A program made the translations under genes and the position numbers. Positions 15,703-39,125 of a DNA stretch of 64,000 nt are shown here, one piece after another (the stretch's first letter is position 1; each line of letters opens with the position of its first letter). The notes beneath the pieces are model-generated. The model saw only the letters and a program-made list of their open reading frames with translations, was not told the origin of the DNA and ran no database searches. The DNA comes from Micromonospora marina (GTDB lineage Bacteria; Actinomycetota; Actinomycetes; Mycobacteriales; Micromonosporaceae), in the NCBI RefSeq assembly GCF_900091565.1, contig NZ_FMCV01000018.1, positions 1 through 64,000 on the forward strand, in the 5' to 3' direction.

Positions 15703-17034
15703 TCAGTGCGCGACAGCGACGGCGGGCGCCGCCTCCAGCCCGGCGAGCCGGGAGGGCCGCACGACGACGAGCAGCACCAGCAGCGCCGCCACCATCCCGC
15801 CGGCCACCACCAGGGCCATCGCCACCGCGCCGGTGCCGAGCACACCCACCAGCGGCGCGGCGATCGCGCCCACACCGAACTGCACCGCGCCGAGCAGCGC
15901 GGACGCGGTGCCGGCTGCCTCGCCGTGGCGGGACAGCGCCAGCGCCGGCGCGTTCGGCATGGCCAGACCCGCCGCCGCCAGCACCAGCCACAGCGACACC
16001 AGCAGGGCGGGCAGCCCGCCGACGCCGGTCGCGGCGAACACCACCAGGGCGAGTCCGGCCACCGTGCCCGCCACCAGCGACGTCACCAGGATCCACTGCG
16101 ACGGGTAGCGGCGCAGCAGCCGCACGTTGTACTGGGTGGCGCCGATCAGGCCCACCGCGCCCGCGCCGAACGCCAGGGCGAACTCCTGCTCGTCGAGCCC
16201 GTAGGTGTCCTGCAGGACGAACGACGAACCCGCGACGTACGCGAACAGCGCGGCCATGGCGAGCCCGGCCACCAAAACCAGGCCGACGAAGACCCGGTCC
16301 CGGAGCAACCCGCCGTAGTTCATCACTGTCGCCACGACCCCGCCGCGCTGGCGGCGTGCGGGCGGCAGCGTCTCGGGCAGCGCGAGCGTGGCCAGCGCGA
16401 CGAGCAGCACCCCGAAGGCGGCCAGGGCCACGAAGACGCCACGCCAGTCGGTCCACCGCAGCACGCCGCCGCCCAGCGTCGGGGCGAGGACCGGCGCCGC
16501 GCCCATCACCAGCAGCAGCCGGGACAGCATCGTGGCGAACGCCGACCCGGTGAACAGGTCACGTACCACCGCCATCGCCACCACAGCTGTCGCGGCGACG
16601 CCGAGGCCCTGCACGACGCGCAGGACGCCCAGGACGGCGACGTTCGGGGCGATCACGCACAGCGCCGAGGCCACGATGTGCAGCAGGAGACCGGCGATCA
16701 GCGGGCGGCGCCGCCCGACCGCGTCCGACAGCGGCCCGATCAGCAACTGCCCGATGGCGAGTCCGGCGAGCGTGCCGGTGAGCGTCAGCTGGACCGCCGC
16801 CGACGTGGTCGCGAAGTCGGTGACGATCGCGGGCAGCGCGGGCAGGTACATGTCGATGGTCAGCGGCCCCACCGCGATCAGCGAGCCGAGGACCAGCACG
16901 AGCTTGAGCCGCTGTTCCCGGCTCATCAGGTCGCCCGGGGTGGACGTCGGGGTGGCATCGGTCGTCTGGGTCGTCTCGTCCCGGTCGGCGTACGGCTGGG
17001 CGCGAGAGGGTGCGGCACTCACACAGTGAGTCAA
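15703..17034 (-). CDS. MFS multidrug transporter, Bcr/CflA (DHA1) family
   Basis: 443 aa, with about 12 membrane helices. LGSLIAVGPLTIDMYLPALPAI in helix 1 and a GRRRPLIAG loop after helix 2 are typical of Bcr/CflA drug/proton antiporters. I chose the TTG at 17034 because GGAGG lies 5 bases upstream; GTG 17022 and ATG 17055 are alternatives, and an internal ATG before helix 1 has no ribosome binding site. It lies next to the E1/E2/ACP/KAS III operon and may export the cluster product or confer unrelated efflux. Confidence 0.85.
   Translation of the reverse strand: MTHCVSAAPSRAQPYADRDETTQTTDATPTSTPGDLMSREQRLKLVLVLGSLIAVGPLTIDMYLPALPAIVTDFATTSAAVQLTLTGTLAGLAIGQLLIGPLSDAVGRRRPLIAGLLLHIVASALCVIAPNVAVLGVLRVVQGLGVAATAVVAMAVVRDLFTGSAFATMLSRLLLVMGAAPVLAPTLGGGVLRWTDWRGVFVALAAFGVLLVALATLALPETLPPARRQRGGVVATVMNYGGLLRDRVFVGLVLVAGLAMAALFAYVAGSSFVLQDTYGLDEQEFALAFGAGAVGLIGATQYNVRLLRRYPSQWILVTSLVAGTVAGLALVVFAATGVGGLPALLVSLWLVLAAAGLAMPNAPALALSRHGEAAGTASALLGAVQFGVGAIAAPLVGVLGTGAVAMALVVAGGMVAALLVLLVVVRPSRLAGLEAAPAVAVAH
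17017..17031. promoter_or_regulatory. inverted repeat at the MFS transporter start
   Basis: ACTCAC-ACA-GTGAGT is a perfect 6-bp inverted repeat covering the first codons or the leader of the transporter gene, depending on the start used. It may be an operator, as efflux genes often have one, but it is short and no regulator is adjacent. Confidence 0.3.
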
Positions 17035-17105
17035 ATACGCCTCCGGTGGCCGCATTCCCGTACCGGCGAGAGGTAACGCAGGTCACGTGGCCCGGGCGGG
17101 CCTGC

Positions 17106-19214
17106 TCACCGGTGCAGCGCGTCGCCGAGCGCGGCCAGGTACGCTCCGGCCTGCGCCCCGTTGACCAGCCGGTGGTCGTAGGCGAGGCCCAGGTCCGCCA
17201 CCGTGCGCTCGCGTACCCCGCCGTCGCCGTCGAGCACCACCTCGCGGTGCACGTCCGGCAGCGACAGGGCGCAGGTGACGCCGGGCGGGATGATCGGCCG
17301 GGCCACCGTGACGCCGGGTGTGTCGTTGAGTGCTACCAGGACGTTCATGCCGGCCATGTCCTCCTCACGCAGCCGCCCGCGCAGCGCCTTCATCCGCAGC
17401 GCGACCACGGCGTCGGCGAGGTCACCGAGGTCCAGCCGGGCCGCGTCGCGGATCACCGGCAGGAACAGTCCGGTGCCGACGTCGACGGTGAGCCCGATCG
17501 ACGGCGCTTCCGCGTCGAGGATCCGGCCGTCGTCGGTGAGCCGCGCGTAGAGGCCCGGGAACCGCTCGTGCAGCGCCGCGACGGCGGCGATGACGACCTC
17601 GGTCAGGCCGACCGCGGCGCCGGTCTCGTCGGCGGCGCGGCGGGCGTACGAGAGCGCGGCCGTCACGTCGACGCGCACGGCGGTGAACGCCACCGGGATC
17701 TCCCGGTGCGACGTCGCCACCACGTCGGCGATGCGGCGTTGCGCCGGTGGCAGCGGCCGACCCGGCGGCACCGCCCGCGTCCCCACCGCCGCCGCCGGCT
17801 CCGGGTACGCCGCAGCGGGCGAGCCCGGACCGGAGCGGACCGGGGCGGGATCCGGCCGGACCGCGGCGGTCCCGTTCGGCGGCGGCAGCGGCACGGCCGA
17901 CGCGGACCGGATCCGGCCGATGGGCGCGCCCGGGGCGCAGTCGGTGCCGGCGGTCACCTCCTGGCGCAGCACGCCCGCCTGCGTGGCGGCCAGCTCCTCG
18001 ATCGCCTTGGACGTCTCGACCGCCGCGATCGGCTCGCCGGCCTCGACCGTCGCGCCGTCCGCGACCAGCCATTCCAGCAGCACGTAACTGTCGTCGTTGG
18101 GGTTGAGCCGGGGCACGTCCACCGGGACGCCCGACGGCGACGCCGAGGTCGGGGCGGACGGCGGCGGACCGCCAGGTGAGTGGTCGGTGCGCGGCACCGG
18201 AACCGCGGCGGGCAGGCGCATGATCCGGTCCAGGATCGCCTCCGCGCCGAGCAGCATCGTTCGTTCCAGGTGCGGCGCGGACGGAATGACCCGGTCGGCG
18301 GAGCTGACCAGCTCGACCGGGCCGCGCAGCAGCGGCCACGCCTCGGCGTGCAGGCGGGCGGCGACCTCGCTCCCCCACGTGCCGCCCGCGGTGCTCTCCT
18401 CGGCGACGATCACGCCGTGGGCGCCGCCGAGCAGGCCGCGCAGGCCGTCCACGTCCACCGGGTAGAGCCGCGCCGGGACCAGCACCTCGACCGTACGACC
18501 CCGCTCGGCGGCCCGCGTGGCGGCGGCGATCGCCCGGTCGGCGACCCCGCCCGGCGCGATGACGAGCGTCGGGGCGCCGGTGGCGTCCGGGTCGTGGACG
18601 CGGGCCCAGTTGCCGTCGTCGCCGCGCAGTTCGAAGGCGAGGCGGTCGTCGACGCGGCCGTCCACGTACCGCCGCCTGCCGTAGAGGACCTTGTCCTCGA
18701 ACAGCATGGCCGGTTCGTCGCGGCGCAGCGCGGCGGCCAGCACGTCGGCCGCGTCGTGCAGCGGGGACAGCTCGTAGAGCGCGAGGTGCGGAATGCCGAT
18801 GAAGTGCTTCTGCGGGCTCTGGCTGTGCGTCGCGCCGTAGCCGCGCCCGCCGCCGACCGGGCAGCGGATCACCACCCGCATCGGGGTGCGCTCGCCGTAC
18901 ATGGTGACGGACTTGGTGATCAGGTTGAGGATCGGGTCGAACGCGAGACCGGCGAAGTCGCCGAACATGATCTCGACGATCACCGTGTCGCCGCACAGCG
19001 CCAGGCCACCCGCGACGCCGGTGATGCCGTTCTCGCTCAGCGGCGTCGACAGCACCCGGTCCGGGTAGGCGGTGGAGAGCCCCTGGGTCACCTTGAACGC
19101 ACCGCCGTACGGGTCGGCGACGTCCTCCCCCAGCAGCCAGGCCCGCTCGTCGGCGGCGAACAGCGCGTGCAGGGCCCGGTTCAGGTTGCGGCTCACCCGC
19201 TCCGCGCGCGTCAC
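17106..19214 (-). CDS. 2-oxo acid dehydrogenase E1 beta / lipoyl / E2 fusion
   Basis: 702 aa combining three parts. Residues 1-325 are a transketolase-like E1 beta subunit (LLGEDVADPYGGAFKVTQGL, TPLSENGITGVAGGLAL). Residues about 360-435 are a lipoyl domain with the lipoylation Lys403 in ETSKAIEEL. Residues about 480-702 are an E2 acyltransferase domain ending in YDHRLVNGAQAG (His681; the usual Asp is Asn685). No clear peripheral subunit-binding domain is seen. With the E1 alpha encoded just upstream it should carry out thiamine-dependent cleavage of a keto substrate and transfer of the acyl group through lipoate. The same E1beta-E2 fusion is known in NapD/QncL, which load a ketose-derived C2 unit on an ACP, and an ACP gene is in this operon. 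The GTG start overlaps the E1 alpha stop codon. Confidence 0.88.
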   Translation of the reverse strand: MTRAERVSRNLNRALHALFAADERAWLLGEDVADPYGGAFKVTQGLSTAYPDRVLSTPLSENGITGVAGGLALCGDTVIVEIMFGDFAGLAFDPILNLITKSVTMYGERTPMRVVIRCPVGGGRGYGATHSQSPQKHFIGIPHLALYELSPLHDAADVLAAALRRDEPAMLFEDKVLYGRRRYVDGRVDDRLAFELRGDDGNWARVHDPDATGAPTLVIAPGGVADRAIAAATRAAERGRTVEVLVPARLYPVDVDGLRGLLGGAHGVIVAEESTAGGTWGSEVAARLHAEAWPLLRGPVELVSSADRVIPSAPHLERTMLLGAEAILDRIMRLPAAVPVPRTDHSPGGPPPSAPTSASPSGVPVDVPRLNPNDDSYVLLEWLVADGATVEAGEPIAAVETSKAIEELAATQAGVLRQEVTAGTDCAPGAPIGRIRSASAVPLPPPNGTAAVRPDPAPVRSGPGSPAAAYPEPAAAVGTRAVPPGRPLPPAQRRIADVVATSHREIPVAFTAVRVDVTAALSYARRAADETGAAVGLTEVVIAAVAALHERFPGLYARLTDDGRILDAEAPSIGLTVDVGTGLFLPVIRDAARLDLGDLADAVVALRMKALRGRLREEDMAGMNVLVALNDTPGVTVARPIIPPGVTCALSLPDVHREVVLDGDGGVRERTVADLGLAYDHRLVNGAQAGAYLAALGDALHR

Positions 19215-20113
19215 GCCGCCGCTCCGCGCGCGAGCGGCCGGGCCAGCACCTCGGCCGAGACCTCCGCGACCCGCTGCCGGGCCCGCGCGTCGGCGGCCGC
19301 GAACCGGTCCGGGTACGCCTCGGCGTACCGCTGGAGCCAGTCGAGGCGGCGCAGGCGACCGAGTTCGTCGGCGGGCCGGGTGTCGTCGCCCTTGCTGTGC
19401 GGTCCGAGCCGGACCGTGTGCTGCACCAGCACGTGCGGCGCCCGGGTGGCGCGGACCCGCTCGACGTGCGGCGCGGCGGCGGCGCGTACCTCGGTCAGGT
19501 CCAGCGAGTCGGACTCGCTGACGGTGATCCCGAACCCGGCGACCCGGCCGGCGATGGTGCCGGCGAGCTGGGCGGTGGTCGGGGTGGACTGGGCGATCCG
19601 GTTGTGCTCGACCACGACGAGCAGCGGCACCCGCCACAGTGCCGCCATGTTCAGCGCCTCGTAGACGGCGCCCTCGCCCCAGGTGCCGTCACCGATGTAC
19701 GCCACCGCTATCGCGTCCTGCCCGGTGCGGTTGAGGTGCAGTCCCACGCCGACCGCGGCGGGCAGGCTCTCCCCCTGCACGCCGGTGGACAGGAACCGGT
19801 CCCGGCGCAGGTGCTGGCTGCCGCCGTACCCGTGGCACACCCCGCCGTCGCGGCCCAGCAGTTCCGCCAGCAGGCCCTCCGGGTCGCCGCAGTGTGCCAG
19901 GTAGTGCCCGTGCCCACGGTGGTTGCTGAACACGAAGTCGCCGGTCAGCAGCGGGGCCAGCGCGACCGGGACGTACTCCTGGCCGAGGCAGGTGTGGGTG
20001 GTGCCGGCGAGGTGACCGTCGGCGTACAGGCGCAGCAGGTGCTCCTCGAAGCGGCGGATGAGCAGCCCGGTGCCGAGGTCGGCGTCGTCGAGCGGGGCCG
20101 GCGCGGTGCTCAC
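19211..20113 (-). CDS. thiamine diphosphate-dependent E1 alpha subunit
   Basis: 300 aa. The ThDP/Mg motif runs GDGTWGEGAVYEALNMA, and FSNHRGHGHYLAHCGDPEGLLAEL is the conserved E1 alpha active-site region. It pairs with the E1beta-E2 fusion encoded next to it. The GTG start overlaps the ACP stop codon (GTGA). Pyruvate or acetoin dehydrogenase subunits are the closest general family, but coupling to an ACP and KAS III suggests a dedicated NapB/QncN-like role in making an acyl-ACP extender or starter. Confidence 0.88.
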   Translation of the reverse strand: MSTAPAPLDDADLGTGLLIRRFEEHLLRLYADGHLAGTTHTCLGQEYVPVALAPLLTGDFVFSNHRGHGHYLAHCGDPEGLLAELLGRDGGVCHGYGGSQHLRRDRFLSTGVQGESLPAAVGVGLHLNRTGQDAIAVAYIGDGTWGEGAVYEALNMAALWRVPLLVVVEHNRIAQSTPTTAQLAGTIAGRVAGFGITVSESDSLDLTEVRAAAAPHVERVRATRAPHVLVQHTVRLGPHSKGDDTRPADELGRLRRLDWLQRYAEAYPDRFAAADARARQRVAEVSAEVLARPLARGAAA

Positions 20114-20349
20114 TCCGGCACGCCCCGCTGGGCGAGCAGCGTGCGCAGGTCGGCCACCGACCGCACGGTGCGGATCTCCCGGGGCGTCAGCGAGATCCGG
20201 TACGCGTCCTCGACGGCCGCGACGATCTGCAGGTGCCGCAGGCTCACCCACGCGGCGGTGGTCGCGGGGCCGGTCTGCGCGTCGACCTGGTCGACGGGCA
20301 GTTCCAACACGTCGGCGACGAGCCGCACCAGCCGGCTGGACATGCTCAT
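20110..20349 (-). CDS. free-standing acyl carrier protein
   Basis: 79 aa, four-helix ACP pattern. The phosphopantetheine Ser lies in AWVSLRHLQIVAAVE; the usual D before Ser is V. This form (W-x-S-L-x-H-L) resembles ACPs that carry glyceryl or glycolyl units in tetronate and NapC-like systems. It probably accepts the acyl group from the E2 domain and presents it to the KAS III-like enzyme. Its ATG overlaps the KAS III stop codon. Confidence 0.85.
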   Translation of the reverse strand: MSMSSRLVRLVADVLELPVDQVDAQTGPATTAAWVSLRHLQIVAAVEDAYRISLTPREIRTVRSVADLRTLLAQRGVPE

Positions 20350-21356
20350 ACCTCGATGATCGTACAGGCCCAGTGCGTGCCCCGGCCCAGCGAGATCAAC
20401 GCGACCCGGTCGCCGTCGTGCAGCTCACCGGCGCCGAGCAGACGGTTTAATCCGAACAGTTGGTCCGCCGCGCCGAGATGCCCGTACTCGGCCGCCAACT
20501 CCCGGTTGGTCCGCTCCGGCGGCACCTTGTGGGCCTCGGCCAGCGACGTCATGGCGCGTTCGTTGTCGGCGACCAGAATCAGCCGGGCCAGGTCGGCGAC
20601 GGTGACCCCGGCCCGCTCGCAGGCGCGTTCGGTGACCCGCGCCATCCGCTCGTCGAGGTGGCGGGCGTACTGCGCGAACTGCTCGGGGTCGTAGTCGAAG
20701 AACTCCATCACGTGCCACACGTCGCGGGCGGCGGGCGGCTCGGCGCCGGGTGCGAACGGCGCCGCCGCGCCGCCGCCGTCGAGCCGGTAGAACCCGGCGT
20801 AGCGGCCGTCGGTGGCGGCCTCGGTGGCCTGCCAGCGCAGCCGGGGGTGCCCGCGCCGGGCCACTGTGGCCACCGCGCCGTCGGAGAACACCATCGGCTG
20901 GGTGTCCATCCGGTTCCAGTACGCCTCGCAGGTCCGGTTCGCGGCCACCACGAGCGCGGTGGCGTACCCCGGGTGAGTGGCGAACTTCCCGGCGACGGTG
21001 TCGAGGCTGAGCACACCGGTGGTGCACGCCTGGGTGAGCAGCACCGCCTCGGCGCCGGACGCGCCGAGCCGGTACGCCAGGTCGGCGGCGGCGTCCCAGT
21101 AGAGGTGTTCGGTGAGGTCGGTGACGGCGAGCACCAGCAGGTCCACCCGGGTGGCGGGCAGCGCCGCGGCGTCCAGGGCCCGGCGGGCGGCCCGTTCGGC
21201 GAGGTCGGTCAGGCCCACGTCCGGCGCGGCGCGGTGCACCTGCCGGTAGCCGTAGCCGAGGACGCGGTTGACGTCGTCTGTGTACTGCGCCACCACGTCC
21301 GCGACGGGCGCCGGGTCGCCGAGCGCCTCACCGAAGGACACCAGCCCGAAGCTCAT
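20346..21356 (-). CDS. 3-oxoacyl-ACP synthase III-like protein with altered triad
   Basis: 336 aa, thiolase fold. The nucleophile Cys111 sits in LLTQACTTGVL. The place of the catalytic His (normally PHQAN) reads ADNERAM with Asp264, and the place of Asn (normally GNxxAAS) reads GHLGAAD with His293. It could condense, or transfer without decarboxylation, the acyl group held by the adjacent ACP; related KAS III enzymes form tetronate rings or ester bonds. It is the first gene of the ACP-E1-E2 operon. The in-frame TTA codon at 20448-20450 (Leu303) suggests bldA control. Confidence 0.82.
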   Translation of the reverse strand: MSFGLVSFGEALGDPAPVADVVAQYTDDVNRVLGYGYRQVHRAAPDVGLTDLAERAARRALDAAALPATRVDLLVLAVTDLTEHLYWDAAADLAYRLGASGAEAVLLTQACTTGVLSLDTVAGKFATHPGYATALVVAANRTCEAYWNRMDTQPMVFSDGAVATVARRGHPRLRWQATEAATDGRYAGFYRLDGGGAAAPFAPGAEPPAARDVWHVMEFFDYDPEQFAQYARHLDERMARVTERACERAGVTVADLARLILVADNERAMTSLAEAHKVPPERTNRELAAEYGHLGAADQLFGLNRLLGAGELHDGDRVALISLGRGTHWACTIIEV

Positions 21357-21401: not shown

Positions 21402-23717
21402 ATGCCCCGAGAGCATCTCACGTCCCTGCCCGGAACTCCCTGGCACGTATGGCGTTCCGCGTTGCTCCGGTCGGCCGGTTTTCCGGCCGGCGGAATGAGC
21501 CGGTTCGCCGCTCCGGCGCTCGCCGAGGCGGCCGACCGGCACCTGCGCGGGGACGGCGACGCGGCGCGGTTCGCGGCCGCGTTCGACGCCGCCGCCGCCG
21601 ATCTCGGGCAGGCGGTCTACGACATCGCCTGCGACGACGCGTTCCGTACGGCGCTGACCTGGCAGAACCCGGCGGTCCTGCTCGCCGTCGACGCGATCCG
21701 GCGCGACGGGCCGCACGCTGCGCGCAACCTGCGTCGGCGGCACCGGGAGGAGGTGATCGCGAAGTACTGGCAGCGGTACTGCCTGAAGAACGACACGGTG
21801 GGCTTCTTCGGCCCGATCTGCTGGACCGAGCTGGGCGGCGGCGGTCCGATCGCGACAGTGCGTCCCGGCGCGGTGCTGACGCGTACCCGGAAGGTGTTCC
21901 TGGAGCGGTGGGGCCTGGACGCGCTGGCGGTGGCCTTCGCCCGCGTGCCCGGCGTGCGGGACTGGCTGCCGGTGCGGCTCGCCCCGCACCTGAGTCTGCG
22001 CGACCGCGTGCTGCGGCACCCGCACCACCCGCCGCAGACGCTGTCGGCGGCGACCGCCGCGCTGGTCACGCTGGCGCGGCGCGGACCGCGGGTGGCCGAT
22101 CTGGTCGCCGCGCTGCTCGCGGACCCGGCGAGCGGCTTCCGCCGGGCCGCGGACGTGCACGCGCAGCTCGACGATCTGGCCGGGCGCGGCGTCCTGCGGA
22201 TCGGCTTCGACCTGCCGGTCGACCTCACCGCCGAGGACGCGCTGCGCGAGCAGCTCGCCGCGATCGGCGACGACACGGCCCGCGAGCGGGTGCTCGGCGA
22301 CCTGGCCACCATCAGCGGCCTCCGGGACGCGGTGGCCGCCGCCGACGGCCCGGACGCGCTGGCCGCGGCGATGTCCGCGCTGGACCGGCGGTTCGTGGAA
22401 CTGACCGGCCGGGCCGCGCGGCAGCAGCCCGGCGAGGTGTACGCCGGGCGCACGCTCTGCCACCTGGAGACGGTACGCGACCTGGACGTCCGCTTCGGTG
22501 ACGCGCTGCTGCAACGGCTCGCTCCGCTGGAACCACTGCTGCTGTCGGCGCGGTGGCTGACCGCGGCGATCGGGGCGGCGTACGCCGACGCGCTGGCCGC
22601 CCTCTACCGCGACCTGGCGGCGGAGTCGGCCACCGGGGACGTCCCCCTGGCCGACCTGTGGTTCCTGGCGCAGGCGGTGGTGTTCGCGGCGGACCCGCCC
22701 GCCGCTGCCGTCACCGCCGAATTCCTTGCCCGGTGGGCCAAGGTGCTGGGCCTGGCCGACGCCGATTCCGACGCCCGGGAGCTGCGGTTCGACGCCGCGG
22801 AGCTGACCGAGCGGGTCGCCGCCGCGTTCCCCGCCGACGCGCCGGGCTGGGCCGGCGCCCGGATCCACAGCCCGGACGTGCACGTGTGCGCCCCGGACGA
22901 GGCGGCGCTGCTACGCGGGGACTTCACAGTCGTGCTCGGCGAGCTGCACGTGGCCCTCGCCGCGTTCGACACGCACTTCTTCGCGTACGGGCACCCGGAC
23001 CCGCGACGGCTGCGCGACGGGATGCGCGCCGACCTGCCCGGCGGCCGGGTGCGGCTCCTGCCGCCGGTGGACTGGCCCCGGCACACCGCCCGGATCGCGG
23101 AGTGGCTGCACGGGCCCGCCGACGCCCAGCTCGGGTTCGTCGACGCGCCCGGCGCCGACCCGGACCGGCTCGTGCCGATCACCGCCCTGACCGTGCGGCC
23201 GGACGACGACGGCACACCGGCGGCGCACGCCGACGACGGCCGCCGGTGGCCGCTGGTGGAGGTGTTCGCGCCGCTGTTCGACCACCAGGTGTTCGACACG
23301 TGGAAGCTGGCCGGCAACGCCGGGCGCACGCCGCGCGTCACAGTCGACGGCCTGGTGCTGGTCCGCGAGACGTGGCGCACCACTGTGGGCGACACCGGCC
23401 TGCACACGGTCAAGGGCGAGCGGGAACGCTACCTCGCGGTACGGCGCTGGCGGCTCGCGCTCGGCCTGCCCGAGCGGGTCTTCGTCCGGGTCGACACCGA
23501 ACTCAAACCCAGCTACGTGGACCTGACCAGCGGCGTCTACACCCGGCTGCTGTGCACGCTGCTGCGCGGCGCGCACGCCAAGGGCGGCGACGGGGTCGGG
23601 CTCACCGTCACCGAACTGCTGCCCGGCCCGGACGACGCCTGGCTGACCGACCGGGCCGGCCGGGCGTACGCCTCGGAACTGCGGCTACAGATCGTCGACC
23701 CGGCGCAGGTGCGGTAG
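21402..23717 (+). CDS. LanB-like protein (lantibiotic dehydratase N-terminal domain), copy 1
   Basis: 771 aa. The protein has the [16 protein letters not shown] start, EVIAKYWQRYCLKNDTVGFFGP in the first third and TELKPSYVDLTSGVYTRLL near the end, typical of the glutamylation-domain half of class I lantibiotic dehydratases. No C-terminal elimination domain (SpaB_C) is present. Family members use aminoacyl-tRNA: LanB transfers Glu to Ser/Thr, and PEARLs add amino acids to peptide ends. No lanthipeptide precursor or cyclase gene is nearby; the setting is an NRPS/PKS cluster. Its length equals that of the second copy, so the two are paralogues. The 45-base gap before it shows no clear ribosome binding site, so it may be leaderless. 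Its 3' end overlaps the end of the MFS-fused NRPS gene by 33 bases. Confidence 0.8.
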   Translation: MPREHLTSLPGTPWHVWRSALLRSAGFPAGGMSRFAAPALAEAADRHLRGDGDAARFAAAFDAAAADLGQAVYDIACDDAFRTALTWQNPAVLLAVDAIRRDGPHAARNLRRRHREEVIAKYWQRYCLKNDTVGFFGPICWTELGGGGPIATVRPGAVLTRTRKVFLERWGLDALAVAFARVPGVRDWLPVRLAPHLSLRDRVLRHPHHPPQTLSAATAALVTLARRGPRVADLVAALLADPASGFRRAADVHAQLDDLAGRGVLRIGFDLPVDLTAEDALREQLAAIGDDTARERVLGDLATISGLRDAVAAADGPDALAAAMSALDRRFVELTGRAARQQPGEVYAGRTLCHLETVRDLDVRFGDALLQRLAPLEPLLLSARWLTAAIGAAYADALAALYRDLAAESATGDVPLADLWFLAQAVVFAADPPAAAVTAEFLARWAKVLGLADADSDARELRFDAAELTERVAAAFPADAPGWAGARIHSPDVHVCAPDEAALLRGDFTVVLGELHVALAAFDTHFFAYGHPDPRRLRDGMRADLPGGRVRLLPPVDWPRHTARIAEWLHGPADAQLGFVDAPGADPDRLVPITALTVRPDDDGTPAAHADDGRRWPLVEVFAPLFDHQVFDTWKLAGNAGRTPRVTVDGLVLVRETWRTTVGDTGLHTVKGERERYLAVRRWRLALGLPERVFVRVDTELKPSYVDLTSGVYTRLLCTLLRGAHAKGGDGVGLTVTELLPGPDDAWLTDRAGRAYASELRLQIVDPAQVR

Positions 23718-26700: not shown

Positions 26701-29006
26701 GCGGCGGGCGTGGCCGCCCAGGCGGTGACGTCGATCGCCGCCTCGGTGGGGCCGTACAGGTTGTGCAGCGCGGCCGACGGGATCGCCGCGACGGCGCGGC
26801 GGGCCAGGTCCGCCGGCAGTTCCTCACCGCTGCACACGATCCGCCGCAGCGACCGGCAGCGGGTCGGGTCGGCCGGGCCGGCGGTGGACAGGAACGCGTC
26901 GAGCATCGACGGCACGAAGTGGACGGTGGTGATCCGCTCCCGTTCGATCAGCTCCCGCAGGTACGCCGGGTCGCGGTGCCCGCCCGGCGCGGCCAGCACC
27001 AGCCGGGCGCCCACGAGCAGCGGCCAGAACACCTCCCACACCGACACGTCGAACCCGATCGGCGTCTTGTGCAGCACCGCGTCGTCCGGGCCGAGCGCGA
27101 AGGCGTCCTGCATCCAGTCGAGCCGGTTGACGATCGCGGCGTGCTCGTTCACCACGCCCTTCGGCCGCCCGGTCGAGCCCGACGTGTAGATCACGTACGC
27201 CGCGTTGCCCGGTCCGGCGGTAGTGCCCCCGGCGGTGTGTGGCCCGTCCGGCCTGGTGTGCGGCCGGTCGGGCGTGGTGAGCGGCAGCACGGTGCCCGGG
27301 ACGGTGAGCCCGTCCGGCACCTCGTCTGCGAGCAGCACCCGGGCGCCGGCGTCGGCGAGCATGAAGGCGAGCCGCTGCGGCGGGTGGTCCGGGTCCAGCG
27401 GCAGGTACGCCGCACCGGCCCGGTGGATGCCGAGCAGCCCGGCGACCAGTCGGTGGGAGCGCGGCTCGTGGACGGCGACGACCGACTCCGGTCCCACGCC
27501 GTACGCGAGCAGCCGCCGCGCCACCTGCTCGGCGGCGGCGGACAGTTGCGCGTACGTCATCCGGGTGTCGCCGTCGACCAGCGCGACCGCGTCGGGCGTG
27601 CGGCGGGCCTGGGCGTCGAACAGCTCCGCCAGGGTGGTCCGGCGTACCGGCGCGGCGGTGGCGTTCCAGCCGGTCAAGACCTGGGCGTGCTCGGCGTCCG
27701 ACATGACCGGCAGCGCGTTCACCCGGGTCCGGGGCGCCGCCACGGCGGCGGCGAACAGCAGCAGGTAGCGGTCCGCGAACGCCTCCATCGCGGTGCGCTC
27801 GAACAGCGCGGTGCGGTACTCCAGCCGCAACTCGTCCCCGGCGATCTCCAGCGACAGGTCGTCCATGGCGCCGCCGAACGCCTCGCCCCGGCCGGTCGGC
27901 AGGTGGTGGAACGTGAGCTGGTACAGCGGCGGCACGCCCGGGTCGCGCCGTACCGCCAGCTCCTCGACGAGCTTCTGGAACGGCATGTCCTGGTGGTCGA
28001 GAGCGTCCAGCACGACCCGGCGGACCCGGCGGACGAGCGTCAGGAACGGTGGGTCACCCGACACGTCGACCCGCAGCACCAGCATGTTCATGAACATGCC
28101 GAGCAGCGGTTCCAGCTCGGCCCGGTCGCGGCCGGCCACCGGCATGCCCACCACCACGTCGTCGCTTCCGGACAGCCGGTGCAGCAGCGCGACGTAGGCG
28201 GCCAGCTGCACCATGAACGGGGTGGCGGCGGTCTGCTGGGACAGCTCCGGCAGCGCCGCCGTCACGTCGCCGGGCAGCGTGCGGCGGATGTCGGCGCCGT
28301 CGAACGTGAGCGTCGCCGGGCGCGGCCGGTCGGTGGTCAGCGCGTGCACGGCGGGCACGCCGGTCAGCGCCTCCCGCCAGTAGTCGCGCAGCTCGTCCCA
28401 CCGGGGGCCGTCGAGGCGGTCGCGTTCCCAGGCCGCGTAGTCGGCGTACTGGACGGGCAGCTCGGGCAGGTCCGGCGCGCGGCCCGCGACGGCGGCGGCG
28501 CACAGCTCGGTCAGTTCGGCGCGCAGGTGGAGCAGGGACGTGCCGTCGAGGATGACGTGGTGCCCGGCGAACAGCAGCCACCAGGTGTCCGGGCCGAGCC
28601 GTAGCAGCCGGGCCCGCCACAGCGGGGCGGCGTCCATCGGCAGGTCGAGACCTGCGTACTCGGCGACGATCCGGGCGCGGGCGGCCTCCCGCTCCGGCTC
28701 GGGCAGCACGGACAGGTCGGTGACCGGCAGCTCCACCGGGACCGTGGGGTGGATGTCCTGGTAGAGCCGCCCGCCGTCCAGGCGAAGCGTGGTGCGCATG
28801 GCCTCGTGCCGGTCGGTGACCGCCCGCAGCGCGGCGAGCGCCTGCGCCGGCCCGGCGCCCGGCGGCAGGGTGACCGCGTCGGTCATCGTGAACAACGGCT
28901 GACCGGGGCTGAGCTGGGCGGTGAACCAGACCCGCTCCTGGGCGTACGAGGCGGGAACGGTGTAGACGTCGCCCACCGAGGTGACGTCGTGGCGCGACTC
29001 GGTCAT
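23685..29006 (-). CDS. NRPS terminal module fused to MFS transporter: C-A(Ser)-PCP-TE-MFS
   Basis: 1773 aa. The C domain (about 10-435) has an intact GHHVILDG. The A domain (about 455-950) reads D-V-W-H-V-S-L-I-D in the specificity positions, the known Ser code. The PCP has Ser1002 in LGGHSLLA. The TE (about 1050-1305) has GHCVGG with Cys1138 where Ser is usual, then THD and EAGHYF for Asp and His. Residues about 1335-1765 are an MFS exporter of about 12 helices (LITASQ-like start, [12 protein letters not shown] loop). The protein should condense Ser onto the chain, release it through a Cys-TE and perhaps pass it to its own membrane part. NRPS-MFS fusions of this order are known from genome annotations. 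The ATG overlaps the PKS stop codon; this is the last gene of the main operon. Confidence 0.93.
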
Positions 29007-32000
29007 CCCGGCCGTCCCGGCCGGCGCAGGCGCGGGATGGGCGCCTCGACCGGTGGAGCGGCGCGCAGCGACTCGATCCGGGCGGCCATCGCCGCGACTG
29101 TTGGCGCGTCGAACAGCACCCGCATCGACAGCCGGGCACCCACCGCCTGCCGGATCCGCAGCACCAGCTGCGCGGCCACGAGCGAGGTGCCGCCGAGGCG
29201 GAAGAAGTCGTCGTGCGGGCCGACCTCGGCCACGCCCAGCACGTCCCGCCAGATCCGGGCGACCGTGGCGGTCAGGTCCCCGTCGGCGGCGGTCACCGTC
29301 GAGGTGGTGGCCGCCGTGGCCGAGGCGAGCCGCCGCTCGTGCCCGGCGACCGCCTCCACGGTGTAGGCGCCGACCGCCACCGAGCCGGTACGCCCCTCGG
29401 CGAGGACCCGCAGCGCCGCCCGCACTGCCGCATCCGGTGCCAGCCCGTCGTGGCCGGGTACGCCCTCGTCCCGCCACGCGCCCCAGGCCACCGACAGCAC
29501 AGGCGCCCGCCAGCCGTGCGGGCTGCGTGCGTACGCGTCGAGGAACGCGTTGGCGGCCGTGTCGTCGGCGCGGCCCAGGCCGCCGGCGAGCGCTGTCACC
29601 GAGGAGCTGAGCAGCACGAAGTCGAGCGGCAGGTCACCGAAGACCGCGCGCAGCGCCAGCGCGCCGGTGACCTTCGGCAGCAGTTCGGCGGCCGCCTCGG
29701 CCGGTCGCGACCCGGCGGACAGCCCGGTGTCGGGCAGCCGCGCGGCGTGCACGATGCCGTCGAGTCCGCCGAGGTCGTCCTCGATGCCGGCGCGTACCGC
29801 CCGCAGCGCGTCCACGTCTGTCACGTCGGCGCGCACGTGGCGGACCTGCGCCCCGGCCCGTTCCAGCGCCTGGACCAGGTCCGGCCGGGCGGTGCGTCCG
29901 ACCAGGACCAGCCGCGCGCCCCGGCGGGCCAGTTCGGCGGCGAACGCCCCGCCCACCCGGCCCAGCCCGCCGGTGATCAGGTAGCGCCCGCCGTCGCGCA
30001 CCACCGGCCCGGTACGCCGGCGCGGCGGCGCCGCCGCGAACCCGCGGGTCCAGCGGCGCCCGCCCAGCCGCAGCGCGACCGCCTCGGCCCGCTCTGCGCC
30101 GAGCAGTTCGTCCGCCAGCGCGTCCGCGCCCGGATCGGCCGGGTCGGCGTCGACCCAGTGGCAGCGCAGGCCCTGACGTTCCAGCGGCACCGAGCGCACC
30201 ACCCCGGCCACCGTGGCGTGTTCCGGGCGCAGCAGGTCGACGCCGGTCACGTCGGCCGTGCCGGCGGTCACCACGTCCAGCGCCACGTCGGCGGCCGGCA
30301 ACGCCTCCAGCAGCGTCAGCAGCGCGAGGTACCCGTGTTCCTGGGCCGCCGTCACGGCGCCGACGCCGGTGCCGGCCGGGTCGCCGTCGAGCGCCCACGC
30401 GTGCACGATCCGGGCGGCCCGGCCGTCGTCGGCGCACTCGTCGAGCAGGCGCTGGTGGTCGGCGACGCCGGCCGGGCGCAGCCGGTAGCCGTCCGGGCGG
30501 ACCGCGAAGGCCGGTCCGGGCCGGACCACCGTGACGTCCGCGCCGCGCTCGCGCAGCCGGTCCCCGAGCGCCTCGCCGCGCTCCCCGGCGACGAACAGCA
30601 GCAGCGGCCCGGGCGCCTCGCCGGGCGCGGCGTCGGGCAGTTGACGCCAGACCGGCACCTCGACCACGCCGTCGTCGTACCGCTCTTCGGTGGCCGGCGC
30701 GGCGGGTGCCGCCACCGGCGCCGGATCGATCCAGTGCCGGGCGCGCTGGTACGGGTAGCCGGGCAGCGGCACCCGGCGCGGCGTGCCGGACGCGGGCACC
30801 CGCACCGGAACCCCGGCCGTCCACAGCCGGCCCGCCGCCTCGTACGCGGTCTGCCGGTCGGTAAGCCGCTCCCCCGGCGCGGGCAGTGTACGCAGCGGCG
30901 ACCGGGCACCCGCCGGCAGGCTGAGCCGGGCGAGACCGGCGAGCTGCCGGCCGGGGCCGCACTCCAGGAGCAGCAGGTCCTCGGCGGCGCCGGTCGCGGC
31001 GAGCGCGGCCACCGTGGCGCCGAACCGGACCGGGCGGCACATCTGGTCGGCCCAGTACGCCGGGTCGGTGATCTGCTCGTCGGTGAACGGCGCGGCGGTC
31101 GCGGCCGAGAACACCGCCAGGTCCGGCGCCCGGCGCGGCACCGCCGCCACGAGCGCCGCGAAGTCGTCGCGCACCGCCGCCAGCAGCGGCACGTGCATCG
31201 CGTACGGCGACCGCAGCGGCGTGCAGCCGATACCGCGCTCGCGCAGGAGGACCTCGGCGGCGGCGACCGGTTCCGGCGCGCCGCCCACCACACAGGTGTG
31301 CGGGCCGTTGCTGATCGCCACCGCGACACCGTCGGGCAGCAGCGGCGCGATCTCGTCGGCGCCGCGCTGCACGGCGAGCATCCGGCCCTCCGGTGCGGCC
31401 TGGACCAGGCGGCCCCGGGCGGCGGCGAGCCGCAGCGCGTCCGGCAGGTCGAACACCCCGGCCACCGTCGCGGCGACCAGTTCGCCGACGGAGTGGCCGA
31501 TCAGCGCGTCGGGCGTGACGCCCCAGTGCCGCCACAGCGCCGCCAGCGCGTACTCGACGGCGAACAGCGCGGGCTGCGCCACCGCCGGTCCGGCCAGCCG
31601 TTCGTCCGCACCGGGTCCGGCGTCGAAGATCATCTCGTTCGCGTCCCAGCCGAGGACCGCGGCGCACTCGTCCACGGCGGCGGCGAACACCGGCTCGGTC
31701 GCGGCCAGGTGCGCGCCCATGCCGGGGTGCTGCGCGCCCTGACCGGGCAGGAGCAGGCCCACCCGGGGCGGCGCCGCGGCGTCCCCGGTGGCGCGGCGCT
31801 TCGGGTCGGTGAGCGCCGCCGCAGCGCGGGCCCGGTCGACGGCGACGACGGCGGCGCGGTGCCGGTGGGCCGGCCGGCCCTCCCGCAGCGTGTACGCCAC
31901 GTCGCGCAGCTCCACATCGGGCGCGCCGGTGAGCCGCTCGGCCAGCCGGGCACAGGCGGCGGCCAGCCCGTCGGGGGTCGCGGCCGACACCTGGAGCAGC

Positions 32001-33343
32001 TCGCCGCCGCCGTGATCCGGCTCCGGGGGTACGCGGGGCGGCGCCTCCTGGAGCACCAGGTGCGCGTTGGTTCCGCCCAGGCCGAGCGAGCTGACGCCGG
32101 CCCGCAGCGGTCCCTCGCCCTCCGGCTCCCACTTGGTCAACGTGGACACCACGTAGAACGGGCTCGCCTCGATGCCGATGTCGGGGTGCGGCCGGTCGTG
32201 GTTGACGGTGGGCGGGATGAGCCGGTGCCGCATCGACAGCACGGTCTTGATCAGGCCGATCACACCACCGGCCGCGCTGAGGTGACCGATGTTGGCCTTG
32301 GTGGACCCGACGCCGCACCAGCCGCGCTCGGCGGTCCGCCGCCCGTACGCGGTGCTCAGCGCCGCCAGCTCGATCGAGTCGCCGAGGACGGTGCCGGTGC
32401 CGTGCGCCTCGACGTAGCCGACCGAACGCGGGGCGACGCCGGCGACCGCGAGCGCCTGCGTGACCACCTCCACCTGCCCGGTGACGCTCGGCGCGGTGAA
32501 GCTCGCCTTGGCCGACCCGTCGTTGTTCACCGCGTTGCCGATGACCAGCGCCCGGATGTCGTCGCCGTCGGCGATCGCGTCGGAGAGCCGCTTGAGCACG
32601 ACCACGCCGACGCCGCTGCCGTAGACGGTGCCGTCGGCGTCCGCGTCGAACGGGCGGCAGTGCCCGCCGGCGGAGGTGTAGCCCTCGTCGGCGACGTACC
32701 CGACGCCGTGCGGCAGTTCCACGCACACCCCGCCGGCCAGCGCCGTGTCGCACTCGCCGCTGCGCAGCGCCTCGGCGGCCAGGTGCACCGCGACGAGCGA
32801 CGACGAGCAGGCGGTCTGCACGGTCATCGCCGGGCCGCGCAGGCCGAGCCGGAACGCGACGGCGCTGGCCAGGTAGTCCGGCTTGTTGCCGAGCGACACC
32901 CGCAGCTCACCGGCGTCCGCGAGCGCCCGCGGGTTCCGCCGGACGTTCAGCCACTGGTACAGGTCGGCGTTGCCGCCCGCGTACACGCCGATCTCGCCGT
33001 CGTAGCGAGCCGGGTCGCAGCCGGCGTCGGTGAGCGCGGCGTGCGCGTGTTCCAGGAACAGCCGCTGCTGCGGGTCGGTCAGCTCCGCGTCCCGCGGACT
33101 CATCCCGAACAGCTCCGCGTCGAACCGGTCCACGCCGTCGAGCACGGCGGCCACCGGCACGTACGCCGGGTCGTCGAGCTGCTCGGCGGTGACACCCCGG
33201 GCCAGCAGCTCCGCGCGGGTCAACCGGGTCAGCGACTCGGCGCCGACGACCAGGTTGCGCCAGAACTCCTCCGCCGACGCCGCCCCCGGTACGCGCAGGC
33301 TGAGCCCGACGATCGCGATCGGCTCCACTGTCTCGTTCGTCAC
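29003..33343 (-). CDS. type I polyketide synthase module KS-AT-KR-ACP
   Basis: 1446 aa. The KS (1-430) has the full Cys179-His314-His354 set (TACSSS, EAHGTGT, NIGHL). The AT (about 530-835) has GHSVGE and YAMH; this is neither the classic malonyl HAFH nor the methylmalonyl YASH, with malonyl more likely. The KR (about 1110-1290) keeps the nucleotide motif TGGLGRVGG, but Asp1261 stands where the catalytic Tyr should be (ADDTAAN). The ACP (about 1345-1420) has GGTSL. The module should add one two-carbon unit, probably leaving a beta-ketone. The GTG start overlaps the stop codon of the second LanB-like gene. Confidence 0.93.
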
Positions 33344-35655
33344 GCCATGACCTCCGGCTCGGCCGAATCGCTGATGTGCAGGCGCAGTTCGCTGGCGTAC
33401 CGGCGGCCCGCGGCGTCGGGCAGCCACGCCTGCCCGGGCACGGGCAGCAGCTCCGACACCGTCACGGCCACGTCGTCGCCACCGGCCCGCCGGGCGGCGC
33501 GCAGCAGCAGGCAGAGCCGGTTCGCGTAGACCGGGCTGCTCAGGTCCACGTAGGCGGGTTTGAGTTCGGTGGCCACCCGGACGAAGACCCGCTCCGGCAG
33601 GCCCAGCGCGGCCCGCCAGCGGCGGACCGCCAGGTAGCGCCGCGCCTGGTCGACGGCGTCGGCCAGGCCGGTCGCCCCGACGGTGGTGCGCCAGGTCTCC
33701 CGCGCCAGCACCAGCCGGTCGACTGTCACCCGGGGGTTGTGCGGGCGGTCGGTCATCAGCTTGAACGCGTCGCCCGCGTGCACCGCGATCAGGTCGGAGA
33801 ACACCTCGACCAGCGGCCAGCGCGTGCCGTCCGGACCGGTCGCCACCAGCACGCCGTCCACCTCGGACACGATCGCCGCGTTCGCCGGCACGAGCCGGTC
33901 GCGCGGTGCGCCGGGCGCGTCGGCGAACGCGAGCCGGTGGTCGTCCGGCCCGGACAGGGACGCCGACAGCCGCCCACCGACGCGGGGGAAGTCGACCGGG
34001 TAGAGCGGGCGCAGCCGCCGCGGGCCCAGGTCGGCCGCGTACGCGCGCCGCAGCCGCTCCACGTCGGGGTGACAGTGCGTGAACAGCTCGGCGTTGAACG
34101 TGGCGTACGCGGCGTGCAGCTCGCCGAGCACCGCCCCGAACTCGCCGGCGGCCAGCGCCTCGGGCGACTCGGCGAACAGTTGCAGGTCCGGGCTGTGCAC
34201 CCGGCCCGCGCTCCAGCCGGGGCGCGTCGCCGGGAACTCGGCGGCCACCCGGGGCGCCAGCTCGGCCGCGCCGAACCGCAGACGGGCCGTCCCGGCTGGT
34301 AGTCCGGCCAGCCCGAGCACCCGCTCCCAGCGGGCGGCGAACTCGGCGGCGACCCGGTCCACCGGCCGGTCGCCGGGCCCGAACAGCGGCCCCTGCGCGA
34401 CGAACCACAGGTCACCGAGCCGGACCTGCCCGTCGCCGCGCAGGTCGTCGTACAGGTCGCGCAGCGCGTCGCCGTACGCCGTGGCCAGTTCGGCGGTGAG
34501 CCAACGCGCCGCCCGCAGCGGCAGGGCCAGCGCCGGGGCCAGCGCGTCGAGCAGGCCGCCGCCGACTGTGAGGTCCACGTCGCGTGCGGTCTCCTCGTGG
34601 CACAGCGCCCGCCCGGCGTAGTTCTGCCCGGCCCGGCGGCGCGGCGGCAGCCCGGTGAGCGCGGTGAACTCGGCGTCCAGCGCGGACAGCGCGCCGGTGA
34701 GCGCGGCCGGGTCACCGGCGGCACCGGCGACCCGGGTCCGGGCGGCGGCCAGCCGGTCCAGCCCGGCCAGCGCCCGTGCCCGGCAGTCCGGCTCGCCGAT
34801 CGCGGCGATCCGCTCCCGCAGGCGGTCCTGCGCGGAGAGCCCCTGCGGCAGGTCGAAGTCCCAGCGCAGCAGCCCTCGTTCGACGAGCTGCGCGAGCAGG
34901 AGGAAACCCTCCTCGGCGCGGCGTACGCCGGTGTGCCCGTCGCGCACCAGGTCGTCGACGACGTCCCGGGCCGGGCGGGTGCCGTCGCACCGGCCCAGCG
35001 CGATCGACTCGCTCAACGACACCTGTTCCGGGCGCTGGGCGGGCCGGTGCACGACCCGGCCCTCCAGGTGCGTGTGCGGCGCCCGGACCGGGGCGAGCCA
35101 CTGCCGGACCCGCGGGTCGGCGGCGAGCCGGTCGGCGTACGCGGCGAGCGCCCAGTGTTCGAGGTGGACGGCGCGGCGGCGGAGCAGCCCGGGGCCGGGC
35201 ACGGCGGTGACGCCCGGCGCGCCGGGTGTCAGGGTGCCCCAGCACACCGGCCCGAAGAAGCCGATGGTCTCGCACTTGGCGACGTAGCGCTGCCAGTACC
35301 CGGCGACGACGTTCTCCCGGCCCCGGCGTCGTACGTTGCGTGGCGCGTCCGGGCCGTCGCGGACCAGCCCGTCCAGCGCCACCAGCGCCTCCGGGTTCTG
35401 CCAGGCGACGGCCTCGCGGAACAGCGGGTCGGCCGCGATCCCGCACAGCGCCGCCGACGACGCCCGGACGGCTGTGGCGTACGCGGCGGTGAACGCCGCC
35501 TCGTCCAGGTCACCGGAGAGGTGCCGGTCGGCGGCGTCGGCGCAGTCCGGCGCGGCGAACCGGTCCAGTCCGTCGGCGGGGAACCCGGCGCTGCGCAGCA
35601 GCACGTCCCGCCACACCGACCAGCCGGTGTCGCCGAGGGGGACCAGGTACGTCAC
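33340..35655 (-). CDS. LanB-like protein (lantibiotic dehydratase N-terminal domain), copy 2
   Basis: 771 aa, co-linear over its whole length with the plus-strand copy ([62 protein letters not shown]). It has no elimination domain. It lies inside the operon between an A-PCP-C-PCP synthetase and the PKS, with 4-nt overlaps on both sides, so it is made together with them. An aminoacyl-tRNA-dependent reaction on a carrier-bound or released peptide is the simplest idea, but this is inference. A second idea is a pseudo-enzyme or scaffold. Confidence 0.8.
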
Positions 35656-38600: not shown

Positions 38601-39125
38601 CGAGGTGACCTTCTCGGTCAGCGCCCGGTGCTCGATCACCGCGCCCTTCGGCTGCCCGGTCGACCCGGACGTGAACATCGCGTACGCGGTGGTGCCGAGC
38701 GTCGCCGGGGTCGGCTGCCAGAGCGCGGTGCCGGCGGGGACGTCCAGCACGGTCCGGCCGGTGAACGCCCCGCCGACGGGCGTACCCACCACGACGCGCA
38801 GGCGGGCCTCGGCGGCCAACTCCCGCAACCGTCCGGGTGGCAGCGCCGGGTCGAGCGGGACGTACCCGGCACCGGCCGCCTGCACGCCGAGCAGCGCGAC
38901 CACCAGGTCCGGGCGGCGGTCCACGCAGACCCCGACCAGGTCGTCCGCGCCGACGCCGTGGGCGCGCAGCGACGCGGCCAGCGCGGCGGCCCGGCCGACC
39001 AGGTCGGCGTAGCTCAACGTCCGTTCGCCCTGCACCACGGCCGGGGCGCCGGGACGCCGCCGGGCGTGCGCCGCGACCAGGTCGGGCAGGCACTCCTGCG
39101 GGAAGGGCAGCTCGGGACCGGTCAT
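35652..39125 (-). CDS. NRPS A-PCP-C-PCP
   Basis: 1157 aa. The A domain (about 15-510) has specificity positions D-A-A-V-V-G-V-V-L, a hydrophobic pocket for which I have no confident match. PCP1 has GGHSI. The C domain (about 610-1030) has a full AHHAVFDG motif. PCP2 has GGGSL near residue 1085. The last C-PCP pair has no A domain, so PCP2 must be loaded in trans or receive a chain from another enzyme. A charged tail ([22 protein letters not shown]) may be a docking element. The ATG overlaps the KS gene stop codon. Confidence 0.92.
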   Translation of the reverse strand: MTGPELPFPQECLPDLVAAHARRRPGAPAVVQGERTLSYADLVGRAAALAASLRAHGVGADDLVGVCVDRRPDLVVALLGVQAAGAGYVPLDPALPPGRLRELAAEARLRVVVGTPVGGAFTGRTVLDVPAGTALWQPTPATLGTTAYAMFTSGSTGQPKGAVIEHRALTEKVTSIAEFCGFDAATRCLAFASIGFDASVADMLAPLAAGGTVVLAGDAERADPTRLYRICAEQSVDVVVLPPPILPLLDPGRLPGVRLVVTGGEATGPEQVGRWTAGGRRFISVYGPTEATVLVTWFEGSGEWTRPIPIGRPAANHRIHLVDDALREVGPGEIGEVLAGGPGLGRGYLFDAARTAQRFLPDPFSGEPGERLYRTGDLARWLPDGNLEFLGRADRQVKIRGQRIELGEVEAVLRRHPDVDLASVQVRAGPGGQELVAYVATGLDVAQLRDHCHRLLPPAAVPARMRTLPALPITINGKIDTERLAALDVAGPAAAPSGEPPATDTERLVAQAWAALLDVPAVGRDDDFFHHGGHSITAMRLVADLRERLGRDLAIEDVLAGRTPRGIAARADAAARTGPAPVVRGRPPALSPAQQRLWFLDRYFPAAASAYNVAFAERLTGPLDVAALATALTAVAERQQILRWRIPERDGVPYAVADPPTPVPLPVRDLDPGTDLAGHLAAHATTPFALATDTLWRAELIRTGADEHVLAVYAHHAVFDGWSQSLFYADLAAAYRAALGGGPPLPPLPATYGDYVAWRADRSRRRAAADLDWWLDHLTGAPAVLRLPGGRDRPAEQTYTSATVRTRLDRAATAALTDLAAGLGATPAAVVLAAFALVLARRAGLPDLVVGTPTVDRRAADFEPMVGFFIEIAPLRLRQTPGAGFAAHVRAAWEELLAALAHPEAPVERIVGGLGLGGLLDRSPLVQVLFNMYTFDEPRLDLAGLTAEPVPVPAPGSPFDLTLYGITRDGRLRVEIVFNPDVYGEALVTEVLADVERLLRAGTADPERPVAELPAWTAVEAGTAGDVSRVARVNRAGGRAGLPAARPATATERRIASVWCDVLGVPEVAATDSFFDVGGGSLAVAVVQRQLNRLLGTSLRVVDLFHHPTVRALAAHLDSVSAPGEDAGDEAVERAARRGALRRQRVQRRPAAEEEPR

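Follow-up and report, generated by a model that had tools for sequence, protein, structure and literature searches.

What does a beta-ketoacyl-acyl carrier protein synthase III (KAS III) gene do in front of genes for loading a small unit onto an acyl carrier protein (ACP)? The question is raised by four genes in a 64,000-nucleotide stretch of Micromonospora marina DNA (contig NZ_FMCV01000018.1, positions 1 to 64,000), called here the window. A sequence-only reading of this DNA had placed the genes at 17106-21356, joined by 4-nt overlaps, and had seen in them the logic of NapB, ACP and NapD: a ketose-to-ACP loader, with a KAS III added in front. All four were indeed found there: KAS III, ACP, E1alpha and an E1beta-lipoyl-E2 fusion make up a minus-strand operon running from 21356 down to 17106, with all three junctions being 4-nt overlaps. 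The ketose-to-ACP proposal as a whole is partly supported by our analysis. The operon is likely to be a NapB-C-D-E-type cassette whose first two steps would supply the neighbouring assembly line with a small alpha-hydroxyacyl group as its ACP thioester, most probably glycolyl-S-ACP; of the readings that sequence comparison offers, glycolyl loading with a ketose as donor is the best. The features of the operon are as follows.

20346-21356, minus strand: KAS III-like acyltransferase, NapE/DinQ homologue; 336 aa, ATG start; Cys111-His293-Asp298; 57% identity to locus L039
20110-20349, minus strand: discrete ACP of W-x-S-L type, NapC/DinT homologue; 79 aa; Ser36
19211-20113, minus strand: E1alpha, thiamine diphosphate-dependent, NapB/DinU homologue; 300 aa (Pfam, E1alpha tree)
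17106-19214, minus strand: E1beta-lipoyl-E2 fusion, NapD/DinS homologue; 702 aa (Pfam, E1beta tree)
18210-19214, minus strand: E1beta part of the fusion, residues 1-335 (Pfam, E1beta tree)
17919-18080, minus strand: lipoyl domain of the fusion, Pfam residues 379-432, Lys403 (Pfam, alignment)
17115-17756, minus strand: E2 catalytic domain, Pfam residues 487-700, His681, signature DHRxxNG with Asn685 (Pfam, alignment)

A conserved operon of a known type

KAS III matches the Pfam families ACP_syn_III and ACP_syn_III_C, E1alpha matches E1_dh, and the fusion carries Transket_pyr, Transketolase_C, Biotin_lipoyl and 2-oxoacid_dh in a single protein; the PP-binding match of the ACP is weak (22.0 bits versus a cut-off of 20.8). 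Residues K403, H681, S36, C111, H293 and D298 are all intact in the window proteins, and the Ser and Trp of the ACP are kept in 31/31 aligned ACP rows.

Since the identical gene order (KAS III-ACP-E1alpha-E1beta/E2) recurs in loci L036, L037, L038 and L057, the grouping of the four genes is not due to chance; a gap of ~70 nt replaces the KAS III/ACP overlap in L037, L038 and L057. The operon is real and conserved, and adds a member to an already known cassette type, in a setting new for it.

The same four proteins occur in the systems of naphthyridinomycin (NapB-C-D-E) and dnacin B1 (DinU-T-S-Q): DinU (306 aa), DinT (76), DinS (754) and DinQ (336) are described as homologues of NapB, NapC, NapD and NapE (PMC7570522). 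Because DinQ is listed there as the NapE homologue, KAS III is an original member of the cassette and not an addition to it. Earlier work on NapB and NapD, from 2012, is cited for glycolyl (PMC5384830). In locus L039, E1alpha, ACP, E1beta-E2 and KAS III have 306, 76, 754 and 336 aa, while further genes of 223, 280, 486 and 613 aa have the printed lengths of DinP, DinR5, DinW and DinR6; two lengths do not agree (DinR4, 909 versus 894 called; DinV, 706 versus an open frame of 546). On the strength of these eight gene lengths, not of an accession, L039 is regarded here as the dnacin locus or one very closely related to it. Identity between the window and L039 is 57% for KAS III, 55% for ACP, 60% for E1alpha, 57% for E1beta and 37% for E2, and the gene order of the window differs from the E1alpha-ACP-E1beta/E2-KAS III order of nap/din.

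Phylogeny of the E1 and E2 components

Genome contigs were scanned with an E1beta alignment, and the best 80 of 576 relatives were taken, which leaves far members of the E1 family outside the sample; these 80, the window and L036-L039 make up the locus sample for the count of E1beta-E2 fusions. All trees are quick ones without bootstrap, and supports are values of the Shimodaira-Hasegawa-like approximate likelihood ratio test (SH-aLRT); 'nap/din-like' is our own label, given by shared neighbour genes. Loci are not independent of each other: L046 and L066 come from one genome, and Micromonospora loci of the window type may overlap between the KAS III and E1beta searches.

In the E1beta tree (48 rows) the window falls into a clade of 17 rows (SH-aLRT 85; 91 with L128 included): the window itself, six further Micromonospora rows, Rugosimonospora L065 and nine nap/din-like rows. 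The E1alpha tree has the corresponding 17-row group at 89, and the dnacin-like L039 is inside it for both subunits, so the NapB/ACP/NapD logic seen by the sequence-only reading is supported at the level of E1. Nap-type rows are split from references with support 100 for E1beta (39 rows versus nine) and 95 for E1alpha, where long branches were flagged. The E1beta references were three host E1s, the E1s of Streptomyces, Paracoccus and Enterococcus plasmids, two of acetoin type and one unassigned. In neither tree did the window subunits group with housekeeping E1, and clustering with branched-chain or acetoin dehydrogenases, the outcome that the same reading had named as speaking against it, was not seen in the E1 trees. 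Rif15, AziC5/C6 and the pepteridine enzymes lie outside these trees.

The E2 motif in the window is DHRLVNG, i.e. HRxxNG rather than HRxxDG. This Asn is present in 81/82 readable nap-type rows (three rows were unreadable), while the four other E2s of the host have Asp (three) or Gln (one) at this position; HRxxNG could distinguish E2s whose acyl acceptor is a carrier protein. We know of no published meaning of this motif. The lipoyl Lys column has K in 59/85 rows; 22 rows have gaps, the match having missed the lipoyl domain, and four are apparently misaligned.

Distribution of KAS III

A search of 397 genomes of the order gave full-length KAS III relatives in 21, the host included (37-100% identity, E<=4.7e-59); the next match drops to E 1.3e-23 and 30% identity. 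The same part of the cluster is present in three other Micromonospora genomes (L036-L038) and in three named Micromonospora loci (L056-L058), some of which may share species with L036-L038. In the KAS III tree the window group and L065 are joined at 97, and the group with the nap/din-like rows and L140 added again has 97.

Among the loci listed, every E1beta-E2 fusion locus has KAS III in the locus (17/17: the window, L036-L039, L056-L061, L063, L065, L067, L070, L090 and L091), again as expected of a cassette member. L062 may be an exception: a contig end cuts its E1beta, and its draft genome has no KAS III match at E<=1e-30. Of the other 70 E1 rows, eight also hold KAS III at the same locus (L040-L043, L046, L066, L069 and L114); in L092 and L064 it is on another contig.

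A loader of a C2 unit (E1/E2) or of a C3 unit (FkbH, which makes glyceryl-ACP; PMC7489565) stands beside KAS III in 18/21 loci: E1/E2 only in five, FkbH only in eight and both in five. The window has no FkbH-type glyceryl loader, as had been noted from the sequence: tblastn with an FkbH query gave no match in the window at E<=1, and a degenerate FkbH query gave a single match of 98 aa at E 0.054. An FkbH loader elsewhere in the host genome was sought as well and not found by a search that was positive in 4/9 control genomes.

Two further kinds of clusters were seen to contain the KAS III family (L047-L049, L052 and L053; L051, L054, L055 and L143). The first kind has, judged by eye, genes for a cupin and for proteins resembling methionyl-tRNA synthetase and N-hydroxylase; the second has phenazine-type genes, annotated in L143 and identified by eye in the others.

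Active site and fold of KAS III

Aligned to Aquifex FabH (2ebd), the window KAS III has Val262 in place of the catalytic His of PHQAN, and GNTSAAS has become GHLGAAD, with Asn replaced by His293 and the last Ser by Asp298; the Cys-His-Asn set of FabH is thus not kept in this alignment. Instead, Cys111, His293 and Asp298 align with Cys113, His296 and Asp301, the catalytic set of ChlB3 (PMC9573744). Cys111, His293, Asp298 and Asp264 are present in 38/38 rows of the KAS III family; of seven rows from outside the family, a single one combines Cys, His and Asp, and Asp264 is absent from all seven.

The AlphaFold model of KAS III has a mean predicted local distance difference test score (pLDDT) of 87. 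ChlB3, NatS, DpsC and CerJ come nearest to it by VIA-align, at Z 38.6 to 37.5, and FabHs follow from 37.1; as rows within 1 Z unit count as tied, the modelled fold leaves acyltransferase and FabH undiscriminated.

Carrier proteins and A-less modules

Carriers were surveyed in 87 E1 rows, 25 with KAS III in the locus and 62 without. The survey was corrected for KAS III genes missed by the gene caller (window, L037, L038, L056 and L058) and for 'fused' calls in L100, L105 and L123, which are E1alpha-E1beta read-throughs; ACPs of L059 and L070 were added, and L097, L103 and L132, where no E1 gene passed, are outside it. A discrete W-x-S-L ACP was present in 24/25 rows with KAS III versus 3/62 without, and a gene for a condensation (C) and a thiolation (T) domain within 3.5 kb of E1alpha in 0/25 versus 26/62. 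As a discrete ACP goes with KAS III and a C-fused carrier with its absence, the counts fit the notion that KAS III is retained when loading takes place on a free-standing carrier, whose cargo still has to reach the assembly line.

A candidate receiver is the C-T end (35778-37358) of an A-T-C-T protein (35652-39122), a module without an adenylation (A) domain. Only 41 aa separate its C and T domains, and both motifs are intact.

36084-37358, minus strand: C domain of the A-less C-T module, motif HHAVFDG; proposed site of ester formation (domain scan)
35778-35963, minus strand: T domain of the A-less module, motif GGGSL; proposed acceptor of the unit (domain scan)

In FkbH-type clusters, C-T pairs are ~180-400 aa apart with no A match between. 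By eye the four such stretches that were read look like an FkbH N-terminal part, where Pfam is silent (L042, 729-1739 and 3282-4340; L044, 2098-2751; L141, 3975-5030). In L146, 577 aa between C and T reach 22.9 bits for AMP-binding versus a cut-off of 29.9; we take this frame with a degraded A domain for DinL, the A domain of which has been called inactive (PMC7570522). As a mark of KAS III clusters, A-less C-T modules were tested and rejected, being common beside E1/E2 without KAS III too.

Proposed pathway and its alternatives

The gene content, domains, active-site residues, family placement and A-less module are read directly from the sequence; we infer the substrate and the KAS III step. 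In the proposed pathway, E1alpha/E1beta with thiamine diphosphate would cleave a ketose phosphate, and the C2 unit, oxidised to glycolyl, would pass to the lipoyl group on Lys403. E2 (His681) would then hand glycolyl to the phosphopantetheine on Ser36 of ACP, not to CoA, and the lipoyl group would be reoxidised by a lipoamide dehydrogenase of the host; the host genome has lipoamide dehydrogenase (one above cut-off) and lipoyl synthase, both on contig C59 outside the cluster. KAS III would next take glycolyl on Cys111 and transfer it from ACP to the carrier of a module in which no A domain works; the C-T end of 35652-39122 would be that module here, and we put this step forward tentatively, rating it somewhat short of even. 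If the A-less module carries glycolyl, its C domain would esterify the upstream acyl chain onto the glycolyl hydroxyl to give an acyl-O-CH2-CO ester, which a PKS (polyketide synthase) module would then extend; this last step is more tentative still. The acyltransferase-type active site together with the A-less C-T module favours an ester over a tetronate or a hydroxymethyl ketone. Alternatively, the T domain of this module may be charged by another A domain, or the unit may be a plain acyl group.

Several observations weigh against parts of this pathway. The choice between a ketose and a 2-oxo acid as donor cannot be read from sequence, and the 17-row clade has support of only 85-89 in quick trees. 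Neither loader is present at 3/21 KAS III loci, nor in the annotated neighbourhood of L140; L128 has a W-x-S-L ACP, yet its genome gave no KAS III match. For the KAS III model Foldseek places FabHs first, and its best sequence match in the PDB is DpsC, a C-C bond former. Counts of C followed by T versus C followed by A are 24 versus 31 in KAS III loci and 28 versus 52 in others (L050/L161, L061/L155 and L059/L163 were counted twice, and L092 and L064, with KAS III on another contig, among KAS III loci). The C-A-T-C-T-C-T protein of L059 has two A-less modules, and another A domain may charge such modules. Finally, the dnacin authors gave loading of the ACP by DinQ as probable (PMC7570522, section 2.3).

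That last view would have KAS III load the ACP instead of unloading it. We consider it improbable: E2 already brings a catalytic His for transferring the acyl group, and 62/87 E1 rows do without KAS III in the locus. A somewhat better, though still small, chance goes to a loader of the 2-oxo acid dehydrogenase type, in which pyruvate, 2-oxobutyrate or a branched 2-oxo acid would be decarboxylated and the ACP primed with a plain acyl group. For pepteridine there is support for such priming of a carrier, with pyruvate and 2-oxobutyrate as substrates and E1 plus an E2-T-C fusion as the enzymes (PMC5384830), and the best NCBIfam matches are pyruvate dehydrogenase subunits, all below cut-offs; however, both E1s group with nap/din-like sets, apart from the pyruvate, acetoin-type and host E1s, in a comparison that the pepteridine enzymes are not part of. 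It is very improbable that the E1 pair is a plain two-component transketolase, which would hand a ketol unit over to some small molecule and leave E2 as a relic. Rif15 (PMC6002545) and AziC5/C6 (PMC9570651), which were outside our comparison, are such transketolases, but the window has an intact Lys in the lipoyl domain, His in E2 and Ser in ACP, and its E2 is joined to E1beta in frame.

KAS III could also form bonds itself, joining glycolyl to a beta-ketoacyl chain released as a tetronate-like ring, as FabH-like tetronate enzymes reportedly do with glyceryl-ACP. A FabH-like enzyme beside FkbH and ACP has been given that role in tetromadurin (PMC7489565), a PKS module is present in the cluster, and DpsC is the best sequence match. 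We rank a C-C bond-forming role lower, as an unlikely one, because the His and Asn of FabH are lost and the Cys-His-Asp set matches that of the acyltransferase ChlB3; moreover, the family occurs in clusters with only nonribosomal peptide synthetase (NRPS) modules in view (L042 and L044), although the tetronate enzymes were outside the comparison.

Transfer of glycolyl to the A-less module remains our preferred role for KAS III. One could extend it, with more doubt than confidence, to NapE-like KAS III in general: a family of trans-loading acyltransferases charging NRPS carriers that have no functional A domain, with alpha-hydroxyacyl units taken from W-x-S-L ACPs (made by E1/E2 or by FkbH) and ending up in ester bonds. 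If so, the Micromonospora A-T-C-T protein would be a clear example, its second module being fed in this way with PKS extension next. The ketose-to-ACP C2 loader is now placed in a pathway of NRPS, PKS and LanB-like genes outside the tetrahydroisoquinoline antibiotics, and NapE/DinQ obtains a testable role, the only one stated in the cited literature being a guess. Should KAS III replace an A domain, E1/E2 or FkbH with KAS III would be a portable route for glycolyl or glyceryl esters into nonribosomal peptides.

Related systems

Loci with E1alpha, E1beta and E2 and no KAS III, many of them from Streptosporangiaceae, have the same E1/E2 family as the window; however, E1beta and E2 are separate genes in them and the carrier is often in the C-T gene beside E1alpha (26/62 rows). 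Upstream of E1alpha, many of L068-L134 (mostly Streptosporangiaceae, without KAS III) share a C-T gene, an AMP-ligase and carrier genes. We know of no name for this recurring Streptosporangiaceae E1-E2 cluster.

Loci of the FkbH-ACP glyceryl loader (L040-L050, L052, L053 and L143) share the KAS III family and in part the ACP type with the window, and L040-L046 have NRPSs with A-less C-T modules as well; unlike in the window, the C3 loader FkbH replaces or accompanies E1/E2. ChlB3 and CerJ share the thiolase fold and the Cys-His-Asp set with the window KAS III at only 22-23% identity; ChlB3 moves 6-methylsalicyl from carrier to carrier and CerJ moves malonyl onto a sugar (PMC9573744).

In both E1 trees the first, long branch among the nap-type rows is RenH of the renieramycin symbiont. 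Unlike in the window, a single gene codes for both of its E1 subunits (L142, 19002-21023, renieramycin plasmid), with 33% (E1beta) and 39% (E1alpha) identity to the window proteins.

The surrounding cluster

Next after the E1beta-E2 gene is a Bcr/CflA-type efflux gene (15703-17055); upstream of KAS III and divergent from it is a LanB-N-like gene (21402-23717, plus strand). The further genes, identified by their domains, are listed below (KS, ketosynthase; AT, acyltransferase; KR, ketoreductase; TE, thioesterase; MFS, major facilitator superfamily).

23685 to about 29006: C-A-T-TE-MFS
29003-33340: KS-AT-KR-ACP
33340-35652, minus strand: second LanB-like gene
35652-39122, minus strand: A-T-C-T protein
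39122-40771: stand-alone KS without AT
40768-43086: A-T
43086-44441: DUF6002 protein (PF19465, 653.7 bits) between NRPS genes
45570-48215: A domain with FkbM-type methyltransferase inside or adjoining, plus T

The assembly line of the window ends in a thioesterase (last module C-A-T-TE) and is accompanied by two LanB-like genes, whereas the dnacin-like locus has a terminal reductase module; no terminal C-A-T-reductase module, as expected of a tetrahydroisoquinoline antibiotic cluster, and no NAD_binding_4, was found in the window proteins scanned. A literature search, made only partly by genus name, gave no paper on this Micromonospora cluster, though one may exist.

PF04738 is the sole domain match of the two LanB-like proteins, which are 52% identical to each other; a PDB sequence search gave no match for them at E<=0.001. 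A LanB-like gene within an NRPS-PKS cluster has a precedent in SnaE (PMC11212132). The first LanB-like protein is present again in L036-L038 and L056-L058, and in Rugosimonospora (L065/L144) a relative of it (34-37%) is close to a PKS gene and to genes for KAS III, ACP and E1. Among the best 80 of 576 E1beta relatives, the nearest named one is that of M. chalcea DSM 43026, at 96%.

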